Of a DNA stretch of 11,493 nucleotides, positions 3,140 through 6,173 are shown in pieces. A model generated the notes under the pieces. It was not told where the DNA came from and ran no database searches. It saw nothing but the letters and a program-made list of their open reading frames with translations. The translations under genes and the position numbers were made by a program. The stretch's first letter is position 1, and the number at the start of each line of letters is the position of its first letter. The stretch is from an uncultured Bacilli bacterium (GTDB lineage: Bacteria; Bacillota_I; Bacilli_A; RF39; UBA660). The stretch covers positions 1-11,493 of the forward strand of contig CALVJE010000027.1 in the NCBI GenBank assembly GCA_944331725.1. The letters are read 5' to 3'.

Positions 3140-3700
3140 TTATTTTAAGAATAATTTTAAAGCTTCTTTTATTTGTTCTTCTATACTTAGTGAATTATCT
3201 ACTTTAAGTATTACACTCTTAATTTCTTTATCTTTATAACCAAGTCCAAGTAAAGCCTCTCTTAACTCTTCACTTGTATCTTTAACAATCTCTTCTCCAC
3301 TACTTAAATCATCAAGTTTCCCTTTTAAGTCAAGAATCATTTGTTTAGCAAGTTTCTCACCTATTTTAGGAAACTTCTTTAGATAAAGGATATTTTCTCT
3401 ATTAATAGCATCACTAATACCAGAAATAGAACCTGTAGCGATAATAGGTAAAGCCATTTTAGGACCTAATCCTTTAACACCAATAAGTTTTAAAAATAGT
3501 TCTTTTTCTTCTTTAGTTTTAAATCCAAATAAGCTATGTTCATCTTCTTTTATTTGTTGATATAAATAGACTTTATAATCACTACCCTCTAGAAAGGCAA
3601 AAGGATTAGGTGTATTAATAAGATAACCTATTCCATTATTTTCTAAAATGATAGCATTAGACACTACTTCTGTAACTTTTCCAATAATATAACTATACAT
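3140..3700 (-). CDS. ruvA: Holliday junction DNA-binding protein RuvA
   Basis: RuvA is the tetrameric junction-binding partner that loads RuvB. The 186-residue protein keeps the family layout. An N-terminal OB fold opens with MYSYIIGKVTEV and includes the YLYQQIKEDEHSLFGF strand-loop (residues about 45-60). The helix-hairpin-helix core carries FLKLIGVKGLGPKMALPI near 69-86 and KFPKIGEKLAKQMILDLK near 108-125. A short linker leads to the RuvB-contacting domain III (SEELREALLGLGYKDKEI). It starts one base after the yebC stop, with AGAGG inside the end of yebC as ribosome binding site, and is followed by ruvB after 13 nt. The acidic pin and all three domains appear intact. Confidence 0.97.
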   Translation of the reverse strand: MYSYIIGKVTEVVSNAIILENNGIGYLINTPNPFAFLEGSDYKVYLYQQIKEDEHSLFGFKTKEEKELFLKLIGVKGLGPKMALPIIATGSISGISDAINRENILYLKKFPKIGEKLAKQMILDLKGKLDDLSSGEEIVKDTSEELREALLGLGYKDKEIKSVILKVDNSLSIEEQIKEALKLFLK

Positions 3701-3701
3701 T

Positions 3702-4424
3702 TTAGTCCTCTTTCATATTGTGATGAACATCCTGAACATCATCTATATCTTCTAAAGCTTCTATTAAGTTATATACTTTCTCTTTAGTCTCTTCATCAAC
3801 TTCTACTTCATTATTTGGAACAAAAGTAACTTCACTAGTTAAGAATTCTGCGACTCCCATATCAGTTAAAGCATCTTTAATAGCGATAAACTTATCACTT
3901 GGTGTTGTAATTAAGTATGTATCTCCAGTATTTTCCATATCTAAGGCTCCTGCATCTAATGCTGTTAACATCACTTCATCTTCATCGTAATCACTAGGTA
4001 TTTCAATAATTCCCTTACGTTCAAAGATATAACTAACAGAACCATCAGTACCTAAATTACCACCACGTTTTGAAAATGTACTACGTACAGATGATGCTGT
4101 TCTATTACGATTATCAGTAAGACAATCTACCATAATAGCAACACCAGCTGGTCCATAACCTTCATATCTTATACTTTCGTAATTTTCTCCACTTCCAGCT
4201 CCCTTAGCTTTATCAATTGCCTTTTGTATATTATCTTTAGGCATATTAGCAGCTTTAGCTTTTTCAACTACTAATCTTAATGAAGCATTACTATCTACAT
4301 CAGGTGTACCGCTTTTAGCAGCTACATAAATTTCTTTAGCAAGTTTTTGAAACACTTTACCACGCGCTGCATCTATTAACCCTTTCTTTCTATGAATAGT
4401 AGCCCATTTTGAATGTCCACTCAT
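3702..4424 (-). CDS. yebC: YebC/PmpR family protein (TACO1-like)
   Basis: This is a YebC/TACO1 family protein. Members have been described as DNA-binding regulators and, more recently, as translation factors that help ribosomes through proline-rich stretches; which role applies here cannot be read from sequence. The 240 residues from ATG 4424 match the family length. The signature N-terminus MSGHSKWATIHRKKG is followed by DAARGKVFQKLAKEI, MPKDNIQKAIDKAKG, YEGYGPAGVAIMVDCLTDN (about 90-110) and RGGNLGTDGSVSYIFERKG. I reject an upstream in-frame ATG at 4448: it falls in the -10 box, whereas ATG 4424 has AAGGGAGG six bases upstream. yebC heads the yebC-ruvA-ruvB-unknown-queA operon. The yebC-ruvAB association is common in bacteria. 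Confidence 0.96.
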   Translation of the reverse strand: MSGHSKWATIHRKKGLIDAARGKVFQKLAKEIYVAAKSGTPDVDSNASLRLVVEKAKAANMPKDNIQKAIDKAKGAGSGENYESIRYEGYGPAGVAIMVDCLTDNRNRTASSVRSTFSKRGGNLGTDGSVSYIFERKGIIEIPSDYDEDEVMLTALDAGALDMENTGDTYLITTPSDKFIAIKDALTDMGVAEFLTSEVTFVPNNEVEVDEETKEKVYNLIEALEDIDDVQDVHHNMKED

Positions 4425-4476
4425 AATTATCCTCCCTTTCTTCTTCATTATAATAACACAAATACATCATTTGTTC
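4425..4476 (-). promoter_or_regulatory. Probable promoter and ribosome binding site of the yebC-ruvAB-queA operon
   Basis: On the minus strand a perfect -10 TATAAT (4447-4452) stands before the ribosome binding site GGGAGG (4431-4436) and ATG 4424. No convincing -35 lies at the usual distance, so the -10 is the only clear element. The predicted leader is short, about 16 nt. Confidence 0.4.
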
Positions 4477-4520
4477 TAGCTTTAATTTAAAAATAATGTT
4501 ATATTACATAAGAGGCGAAG

Positions 4521-4862
4521 ATGATGGAAAAATATATTAGAAATGGTAGTAAGAAAATTAAATTTAAATCTGTAATTAAGTTTAAAGATAGAATAAAAGG
4601 TTTTAGATTTTATCTTTATCCTATTAAAGAAGGATTATGTTATCCTAAAAAGAGAATGATTAACACTTATTTTGTATGTCAAAAATTAGATATAGTAGTT
4701 ACTGATAAAGAAAATAATATATTAGCAATATATCCATCTATTAAAACAGAAAAGTTTATAAGACCAAGACTTAAAGCTTATTATATATATTTACTTCCAG
4801 AAGGTAGTTCTAAAGGATTAGAAAATTATGAAAAGTTAAGAATAATGACTAAAGAAAAATGA
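4521..4862 (+). CDS. Small DUF192-like protein
   Basis: The 113-residue soluble protein resembles the DUF192 family, whose function is not established. The resemblance is a pattern match by eye: a hydrophobic GFRFYLYP segment, then TYFVCQKLDIVVTDKENNIL (about residues 49-68), aligning with the family's 'fWMknT.ipLDvvFlD..g.Il' core. A later YIYLLPEGSSKGLENYEKLRI-like end (about 87-107) matches 'yvlElpaGt......Gd.l'. The family's usual Met/Trp-rich GLM and WMKNT residues are replaced, so it would be a divergent member. AGAGG at 4511-4515 serves as ribosome binding site; it is five bases before the first ATG and eight before a second ATG at 4524, so either start is possible. It is divergent from yebC, and its TGA overlaps a terminator stem. 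Confidence 0.75.
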   Translation: MMEKYIRNGSKKIKFKSVIKFKDRIKGFRFYLYPIKEGLCYPKKRMINTYFVCQKLDIVVTDKENNILAIYPSIKTEKFIRPRLKAYYIYLLPEGSSKGLENYEKLRIMTKEK

Positions 4863-4893
4863 AATCTAGTATACACATAATGTACTAGATTTC
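4861..4893. terminator. Bidirectional terminator between the DUF192-like gene and the dnaI unit
   Basis: A perfect 11-bp inverted repeat, GAAATCTAGTA (4861-4871) and TACTAGATTTC (4883-4893), encloses an 11-base loop. A T-rich run follows on the minus strand (ATTTTTCTTT) and an AT-rich tail on the plus strand. It overlaps the TGA of the plus-strand gene and lies 17 nt beyond the stop of the minus-strand fragment at 4911, so it can serve both converging genes. Confidence 0.75.
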
Positions 4894-4910
4894 ATTATTA
4901 TTTATAGTTT

Positions 4911-5255
4911 TCAAAGACTAGGACTAAGCACGAGACGGAACGAGAGATTACTGCCTGGAGCACCAAGAACAACAGCACGAGAAAAGCTAAAAACACCTGC
5001 ACCAATATCATTACCAAAGTAACCGCCGCGCACCAACCATGGGTACTGTTCACTTACCATATTATGATAATCCCCATACCAGCCACTTGCTTCTGACAAA
5101 CTATGACTTAAACACTCACTTCCATTACATGCTGTCATTGGATCATTACTTGTATACTTATTATAATATTTTGATTCTGGCATACTTATAAATCCACTAT
5201 CTGCCACTATATCATTATAGTTTTCCATAACATATTCCCAGGTTCCTCCACTCAT
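4911..5255 (-). pseudogene. C-terminal fragment of an FGE/C-type-lectin-fold protein; possible variable-region cassette
   Basis: The 114 residues look like the last part of a formylglycine-generating-enzyme (FGE-sulfatase/SUMF) or C-type-lectin-fold protein. MSGGTWEYV at the start corresponds to the family 'YDMSGNVWEW'; WYGDY is mid-way; WLVRGGY (73-79) and SFRLVLSP near the end match 'vRGGsw...GFRlv'. The motif begins before the ATG: in-frame codons Lys-Tyr-Asp precede the Met, giving YDMSGG, and a TAA stands directly upstream (5265-5267), touching the dnaI stop. No ribosome binding site precedes the ATG. So this is a truncated remnant or an inserted cassette rather than a normal gene. From Trp73 on, the coding strand is adenine-poor (14 of 129, against about 80 of 216 before it) and about 48% GC. 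The lost N-terminal part probably carried an export or surface anchor. It could still be translated weakly. Confidence 0.6.
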
Positions 5256-5267
5256 ATCATACTTTTA

Positions 5268-6173
5268 TTAATTTCTTCTATTCTTACTAATTAACTCTAA
5301 AGAAACAGTAAGCTGTTTAATTCTTTCAACAATTCTCTTTGCTTTTACTTTTTCTATACCATTACTAGTCATACTTAAAGCACTCTCTAATTCTTTTAAT
5401 GTTAAATTAGAAGTAAAAAATGTAGGTAATTCTTCTTCCATTCTATATTGTAATATTGGTCCTAACACTTCATCTCTACTCCAAGCAGTTGTATTTTCTG
5501 CACCTATATCATCTAATAATAATAATGGTACTGTCTTAATAAACTCAAACTTTTCTTCATAGTCACTTCCAAATGATGATTTTAAACTCCTAAGTAACTC
5601 AGGATAATATACTAAAGCAGAACTAATATCTTTCTTAGCAAGTTCATTAAATAAAGCTGCTATTAAATATGTTTTACCACTTCCAAAAGAACCACTTAAA
5701 TATAGTCCTTTACCAGTTTTATTCTTAGTATAAGTATCTATAAATTCTTTAAAATACTTAATTATAGGTACTCTTTTACTATCATCTCGATATAAATCAT
5801 TAAAATTAGCATTACTAATTTCTCTAGGTAAATCAAAACAAGTAATATTCTTCTTATAAGCATAACTATTTTGTTCTTTAATAAACTTATCACAAGGAAC
5901 ATAAGAAAAATTAAGTCCATTACCTTCCTTAATTGCTTTTAAACAATGTCCTTTTAAAGTATTAGGACATTCTTTTAACGAAGGACAATTCTTACAATTT
6001 TTCTCTTCTTTAATAGCATCTTCTATATTAGAAGTATACTTCATAAGAACTTCATCATTAAGATCAATATTATCAGTATATTTCTTAAATTCTTCATCTT
6101 TTAATGCTTCTACATAATAAGATTTTAATTTATTAATATTACTTGGTTTAACTATAGTATTTATTTTTTTCAT
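5268..6173 (-). CDS. dnaI: Primosomal protein DnaI (replicative helicase loader)
   Basis: DnaI is the AAA+ loader that places the replicative DnaB-type helicase on DNA at origins and restarted forks in Bacilli. The 301-residue length fits. The N-terminal helicase-binding domain holds a Cys/His cluster (C60, C63, C69, H76, C77, C94) consistent with the zinc site known in DnaI. The C-terminal ATPase has Walker A GSFGSGKT at 161-168, Walker B LLLLDDIG at 217-224, a sensor-1 FTSN at 253-256 and an Arg-rich KAKRIVERIKQL near 278-288. Unlike the usual dnaB-dnaI pairing, it here follows comEA, comEC and an unknown gene; the upstream stop is only 10 nt away. GGGTG upstream is a modest ribosome binding site. 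Immediately downstream lies the lectin-fold fragment. Confidence 0.92.
   Translation of the reverse strand: MKKINTIVKPSNINKLKSYYVEALKDEEFKKYTDNIDLNDEVLMKYTSNIEDAIKEEKNCKNCPSLKECPNTLKGHCLKAIKEGNGLNFSYVPCDKFIKEQNSYAYKKNITCFDLPREISNANFNDLYRDDSKRVPIIKYFKEFIDTYTKNKTGKGLYLSGSFGSGKTYLIAALFNELAKKDISSALVYYPELLRSLKSSFGSDYEEKFEFIKTVPLLLLDDIGAENTTAWSRDEVLGPILQYRMEEELPTFFTSNLTLKELESALSMTSNGIEKVKAKRIVERIKQLTVSLELISKNRRN

Follow-up and report, generated by a model that had tools for sequence, protein, structure and literature searches.

A probable DGR variable region on a truncated target-gene end, and the template arrays of sister species

The DGR of Bordetella phage BPP-1 (mtd, avd, brt) has one template adjoining its genes, and in the usual picture of DGRs such a template randomises a target, AAY codons avoiding stops. 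In pilE/pilS, vlsE and similar silent-cassette systems, one expressed gene is rewritten from a series of partial copies by homologous recombination. AAY codons have been argued to be a way round stops in DGR templates (PMC12875486). In Treponema denticola (PMC4891356), the DGR acts on chromosomal targets, up to 7 per template, among them truncated targets of 58–136 aa, and some isolates have targets but lack a template or reverse transcriptase; at most one template is found per isolate (Table 1 of that paper), multiple templates occurring only within individuals' metagenomes. Among the DGRs of the MetaCSST study, 216 of the 271 multi-VR DGRs are single-template so that the rest must have several; the examples given include one DGR of 2 templates and one of 6, the latter called atypical, with few A-to-N substitutions (PMC6642488). 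Thiohalocapsa PB-PSB1 is described as having many targets per genome and several DGR loci, mobile elements having disrupted some of these (PMC10907252).

Here, we analysed a stretch of 11,493 nt from an uncultured Bacilli bacterium (the window), together with genomes of its relatives. The DGRs of sister species resemble that of BPP-1 in having Avd and a reverse transcriptase, an A-specific transfer from template to variable region, a conserved 3′ end and a hairpin after the variable region. Unlike in BPP-1, template units number 3 to at least 25 per locus, a stop-bearing first unit (the null unit) occurs and the site is chromosomal, near rpsL. Chromosomal targets, truncated ones among them, are shared with T. 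denticola, but its single template per isolate contrasts with the several templates per locus in sister species. The multiplicity in Thiohalocapsa PB-PSB1, in the portion of PMC10907252 available, is one of several DGR loci rather than of one template array. In contrast to pilE/pilS and vlsE, 7 of 9 sister-species transfers bear adenine changes as expected of error-prone reverse transcription. The accessible text of PMC6642488 describes no stop-bearing template and no structured units in tandem array, and a tandem template array with a stop-bearing unit is likewise absent from the accessible parts of PMC4891356, PMC10907252, PMC3521204, PMC8144416, PMC12875486, PMC10053308 and PMC11792537. A template array or stop-bearing template was not found in the open-licence DGR literature within the limited coverage and partial texts available.

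The adenine-poor gene end in the window

On the minus strand, positions 4911–5039 contain 14 A, 25 C, 37 G and 53 T in 129 nt (11% A, 48% GC), following 216 nt of coding strand with 80 A (37%), and 35 of the 43 codons end in C or T, just as the earlier note had described the adenine depletion and pyrimidine-ending codons of this site. It is the A-poorest 129-nt stretch of the window on either strand; 5 of 22,728 overlapping segments of this length, both strands counted, have 14 or fewer A, every one of them at this site. Within it lies a variable region of 102 nt (4929–5030, minus strand), which runs from CGCGGCGGT to TCGTTCCGTCTCGTG, boundaries common to sister-species targets and templates. 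The 5′ boundary (5022–5030, minus) is the identical motif found at template units and targets; the 3′ boundary (4929–4943, minus) corresponds, by comparison with the units of relatives, to the homing (IMH-like) end position. Its TCGTTCCGCCTCGTG is invariant across 62 aligned units, which were chosen by that very motif with slight leeway. The gene thus has, as DGR targets do, a 3′-end variable region with both template-like boundaries (4929–5030).

An exact template for this variable region was not found among the units of sister species, and every window-template comparison uses foreign templates. At codon positions 1–2, the window mismatches a G018 unit at 18 of 25 template A and 5 of 43 other bases (one-sided p 6e-7; 18/27 and 13/75 over all positions), and a G014 unit at 16/25 and 6/43 (p 3e-5). 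As these are the two closest foreign units, picked from 20 of equal length, the p values are optimistic. Pooled over all 20, mismatches at codon positions 1–2 fall on 339 of 462 A and 205 of 898 other bases; the non-A mismatches could reflect drift of the foreign template. The proposal that this stretch is DGR-diversified gains from its two conserved GC-rich boundaries and from foreign-template mismatches that fall mainly at template adenines. No reverse transcriptase or Avd was seen among the listed ORFs of the window, read by eye, and no template repeat among the 20 largest direct repeat families and 25 longest inverted pairs shown.

The variable region ends a frame of about 117 codons (4911–5264, minus), the 3′ part of a DGR-target-family gene of about 600 aa. 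An in-frame TAA TAA stands immediately 5′ of the frame, directly after the stop of a dnaI-like gene, which bears out the claim that the gene is a fragment. The first codons fall midway in the conserved motif Y-D-M-S-G-G, and full-length homologues, in L001, L002, L003 and across the genus, have about 590–640 codons; because of these two features, the window can be taken to hold about the last 117 codons. To judge by such comparisons, the window gene is a 5′-truncated remnant and the complete gene is absent there. It is probably not translated as a surface protein. A Pfam search of the fragment gave no match.

The dnaI-like gene encodes an ATPase of 301 aa (5268–6173, minus) and its stop abuts the remnant; the name rests on resemblance and place, as Pfam matches only an IstB/AFG1-type ATPase. 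It is 98% identical at the protein level in G003, the nearest relative among four genomes compared (DNA identity 93% over 4.4 kb). At the junction, an 8-nt microhomology, TATGATAT (5254–5261, minus), is common to the region downstream of dnaI in relatives and to the target codons Y-D-M. The sequence 3′ of dnaI is AAAGTATGATATTAC in G001, AAGTTATGATATAAT in G003 and AAAGTATGATATGAG in the window, where the post-dnaI AAAGTATGATATGAGTGGAGG runs on into the target codons Y-D-M-S-G-G. A different gene follows dnaI in G003 (293-aa frame) and in G001 (290-aa frame), and the match of G002 to the window likewise stops at the dnaI end. On its other side, the remnant is tail to tail with a 113-aa gene (4521–4862, plus), which is conserved next to yebC or, in G001, faces a full-length target in the same tail-to-tail arrangement, dnaI lying on a separate contig. 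In G003, a 648-aa frame occupies this position. One contig of G016 holds the dnaI end, an inserted gene and the 113-aa gene, and in the window dnaI and the 113-aa gene likewise share a contig, with the remnant standing where G016 has the insert. What flanks the 113-aa gene and dnaI varies by species, and some of these neighbours are surface-protein-like (window 4862–5268; L219–L223).

The gene end CTTAGTCCTAGTCTTTGA (4911–4928, minus), compared with the 3′ flanks of other targets, lacks the other arm of the relatives' hairpin, GACTAGTCC..GGACTA. A hairpin of the type GACTAGTCCGTAAGGACTA stands 3′ of all nine rpsL-linked targets and is not intact in the window. As other targets with A-poor ends (e.g., in G008 and G029) are also without it, its loss is no proof of inactivity.

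In an alignment of 26 sequences including the window, the part from R-G-G to S-F-R-L-V varies in sequence and length, and the preceding part is better conserved. Family matches are present in 27 of the 35 genomes of G003's genus, G003 itself having three target-family genes. These are probably surface proteins, given a hydrophobic stretch near the N-terminus and the look of the family. Seven of eight full-length members weakly match PF03781 (FGE-sulfatase; best E 0.0016; first member 16.1 against a cut-off of 23.3), and the target end alone has no PDB sequence match. Differences between sister loci are concentrated in the variable region: 18 of 76 differing columns inside and 15 of 3349 outside for G012/G027, and 50/85 inside and 30/1915 outside for G014/G030, where the inside difference arises because G030 holds the null sequence.

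DGR loci and template arrays of sister species

Five loci (L117, L118, L119, L120, L142) share one arrangement 5′ of rpsL-rpsG-fusA-tuf (named by resemblance), with all parts in the same orientation: the target, about 625 codons long, is followed by a terminator-like hairpin, then by the row of units, and last by a small gene and the reverse transcriptase; in some loci, one or two further genes precede rpsL. In L137 (G006), which breaks off at the target, the genes that follow the reverse transcriptase are different ones. The small gene of G001 encodes an Avd (NCBIfam NF033474, DivGenRetAVD, 84.4 bits against a cut-off of 80; Pfam bAvd PF22296, 81.9 against 40). The closest PDB sequence to the G001 reverse transcriptase is 8ub7 (E 1.3e-49), titled only 'Reverse transcriptase', the enzyme of phage BPP-1; in NCBIfam, reverse-transcriptase families are matched only below cut-off. 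The sister-species enzyme contains the motif LPIGNYTSQ, the signature of DGR reverse transcriptases. Full-length homologues of the window gene in the same genus are thus DGR targets adjoining Avd and a DGR-type reverse transcriptase, which supports the DGR origin proposed for the window stretch.

Near full-length relatives of the reverse transcriptase, at 79–100% identity, occur in 9 of 35 genomes; G025 and G031 have only contig-end pieces (89–90% identity), and the remaining genomes of the genus have distant matches at 49% identity or less, two being without any. One more genome, G014, has the gene interrupted by a group II intron, which carries a reverse transcriptase of its own (L116; G014:C1, about 3241–5126). 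No good match to the DGR reverse transcriptase and no template unit with exact boundaries was found in G003. The assemblies of G003, G029 and G020 (3 of 9 examined) are missing rpsL, which neighbours the DGR elsewhere, so that the absence of a DGR there tells little. When 291 family genomes were drawn for a search outside the genus, the boundary pattern appeared in 2, one of which lies inside the genus. G004, of another genus (L146–L165, L017), has short template-like copies dispersed through its genome, which make up about 45 of its 75 profile matches; several lie near target genes, some have promoter-like sequence before and hairpin-like sequence after them, and one DGR-like reverse transcriptase is present. 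No A-specific template/target pair emerged from the G004 pieces compared: four targets had a same-length copy, with 22 to 29 non-A differences at best, and a fifth had none.

A unit consists of the 5′ boundary, a lectin-family cassette, the 3′ boundary and a conserved segment, with a repeat spacing of 316–402 nt in G001. At least 25 such tandem template-like units precede avd and the reverse transcriptase in G001 (G001:C20, about 3413–12460; L115, L014), several of them no longer AAY-rich and resembling diversified variable regions. G034 has 10 units, G014 and G018 have 6 each, G016 and G030 5 each; counted by boundaries, G006 has 5 (on one contig, interrupted by another gene) and G012 and G027 have 3 each. 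Two units stand at a contig end in G008. A single template beside the reverse transcriptase, the archetypal arrangement, is thus replaced by 3 to at least 25 units per locus; since multi-template DGRs are known (PMC6642488), template number marks a variant rather than non-membership. The close loci of G014 and G030 have three units in common by protein sequence, and the remainder differ.

Of the ordinary units, 58 (53 distinct) have an exact 5′ boundary, and every one of these is in frame and stop-free; this count takes a unit present in two overlapping loci once and leaves out two G001 units with an altered 5′ boundary and two units (G001, G008) in which none was found. For the 62 aligned units, which exclude one G034 unit of irregular length and the G027 rows (near-copies of those of G012), we propose a stem with two inner helices, in which 96.4% of cells are paired. 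Cells changed on both sides number 38, against 7.5 in shuffles (0 of 500 reach 38) and 1–6 when the stem is slid, counts that are inflated because the units are related; double-change pairs (5 vs 3.7) and further pair types (18 vs 17.2) are unremarkable. The outer stem was proposed by reading a single sequence, and RNAalifold unaided gives the inner helices only, weakly (−3.0 kcal/mol).

Target variable regions of sister species differ from one same-genome template almost only at template adenines. In five loci (G001, G014, G016, G018, G027), 55 of the 133 template A are changed in the target, as is 1 of the 377 remaining bases (C 1/116, G 0/110, T 0/151; Fisher 1.5e-35). The G006 pair differs at 13/26 A and 1/70 other bases, the G012 pair, with one 3-nt deletion allowed, at 15/30 and 1/66. 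Pooled over these 7 of 9 loci, 83 of 189 template A are changed, as against 3 of 513 other bases; the template-mismatch check suggested in the earlier note, run here in relatives, thus gave A-specific differences within one genome. The source template was taken as the unit with the fewest non-A differences, a choice that favours low non-A counts; where listed, the second-best unit of the same length has at least 13 non-A differences, bar a copy of the target itself. Only variable regions that start with RGG and equal a template in length were compared; two template units were counted among templates, not variable regions, and L105+12, a target-identical piece of the G001 target that a locus end cuts off, was excluded. 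The source is the first lectin unit in G018 and G006, the second in G016 and the last in G014, G012 and G027. Remote G001 targets were also considered as array products; in the best case, L001:5753, 12/31 A are changed but 17/71 other bases as well, so that no recent transfer is claimed.

The stop-bearing first unit

The first unit of 7 of the 9 loci encloses, between the usual ends, a non-lectin filler of 89–93 nt with 7–13% A. All seven fillers carry a stop in frame with the variable region. Shuffled fillers do so in 46–74% of cases (product 0.02 if independent, but the units are related), and as stops are this frequent, the seven of seven lend modest support. In G012 and G027 (L142, L143), the first unit combines a null-type 3′ flank with a lectin cassette; taken as a fresh copy of another unit, it differs at 11/31 A but also at 5–6/68 other bases and is not recent.

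Two of the nine target genes examined are in an 'off' state, with null sequence in the variable region. In G030 (L119, G030:C7), the target variable region repeats the null unit without a difference through 91 nt; the match in G034 (L120, G034:C74) is broken only by an extra T in a T run and one A-to-G change. Both targets have a stop 6–7 codons past R-G-G. Adenines are changed at 0 of 12 and 1 of 8 positions in these copies (1/20 together, vs 55/133 in the first five loci; Fisher 0.001), and so few adenine changes count against plain mutagenic retrohoming. Moreover, a flank ATGAGCGTGACTA past the 3′ boundary is common to null unit and target in 6 of 7 loci (not in G006; one change in G016), and the ordinary units listed lack it. 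This shared flank makes gene conversion a fair alternative for installation of the null sequence. The off states may reflect regulated switching rather than accidents or assembly faults.

In addition, the null unit holds 28–29 nt that are reverse-complementary, with 3–4 mismatches, to a conserved element in the 3′ flank of the target. This antisense match scores 38–43 in G001, G014, G016, G018 and G030 (L115–L119), compared with 16–29 for a same-strand control; it is weaker in G034 (33) and there is none in G006 (15). When it occupies the variable region, null sequence could base-pair with the target's 3′ flank.

Origin of the remnant and meaning of the arrays

We consider it very probable that the window stretch is a genuine DGR variable region, left behind on the stranded, 5′-truncated remnant of a target gene. 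An intact target would once have faced the 113-aa gene tail to tail, the arrangement of G001, and its end would last have been rewritten by adenine-error cDNA, the template being of the R-T-x-x-L-G-G class. The first ~500 codons would then have been lost and the rest fused to dnaI through a deletion or rearrangement, with the 8-nt TATGATAT microhomology as its site; such an event would be the simplest account of the junction. That the adenine poverty merely mirrors the usual base composition of a lectin-fold end, or its codon bias, a DGR playing no part, is hardly credible: although the conserved boundary codons are GC-rich in themselves, the site is the A-poorest on either strand of the window, variability among homologues and sister loci is concentrated in the variable region, and the A-specific template/target pairs of relatives contradict this explanation.

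The joint itself might be an assembly chimera, with an intact gene elsewhere in the real genome, and many contigs of relatives do end within these repeated genes. We regard this as improbable, since only 8 nt are common at the joint, the G016 contig also unites dnaI end, insert and 113-aa gene, and the truncated protein belongs to a cluster of 5 member sequences on 8 contigs as listed; it is on the microhomology and this one cluster that the joint would rest as real. Somewhat less far-fetched, yet still unlikely, is a live silent cassette, that is, a promoterless 5′-truncated copy kept as acceptor of mutagenic cDNA or as recombination donor to intact targets. A locus shared by G011 (L130, G011:C29) and G023 (L129, G023:C6), 94.6% identical over 4 kb and away from contig ends, has a 5′-truncated target with an intact hairpin and differing variable regions, as such a cassette might; however, the two also differ mid-domain, so that ordinary recombination accounts for part of this, and the window lacks the downstream arm of the hairpin. 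Furthermore, the window's variable region did not turn up in any intact gene among proteins of 0.55–1.75 times the fragment length (best others 68–69% identical) or in the genus match (best 79% identity over a part).

With the window stretch read as a stranded DGR variable region, the feature itself would belong to a known DGR type, and what appears new is the array and null-unit locus of the relatives. It is plausible, if still somewhat doubtful, that the DGR of this genus is a multi-template writing machine, in which one reverse transcriptase, supplied with an array of structured template RNA, exchanges the target end for various scaffolds of unequal length, each adenine-randomised on transfer, and the conserved, A-poor, stop-bearing first unit serves as an 'off' template that switches the protein off. 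The window illustrates the decay of target genes into stranded ends. If the proposal is true, an array of alternative templates would add a choice of scaffold to randomisation, and a stop-bearing template would be an off switch, uniting antigen-style diversification with phase variation.
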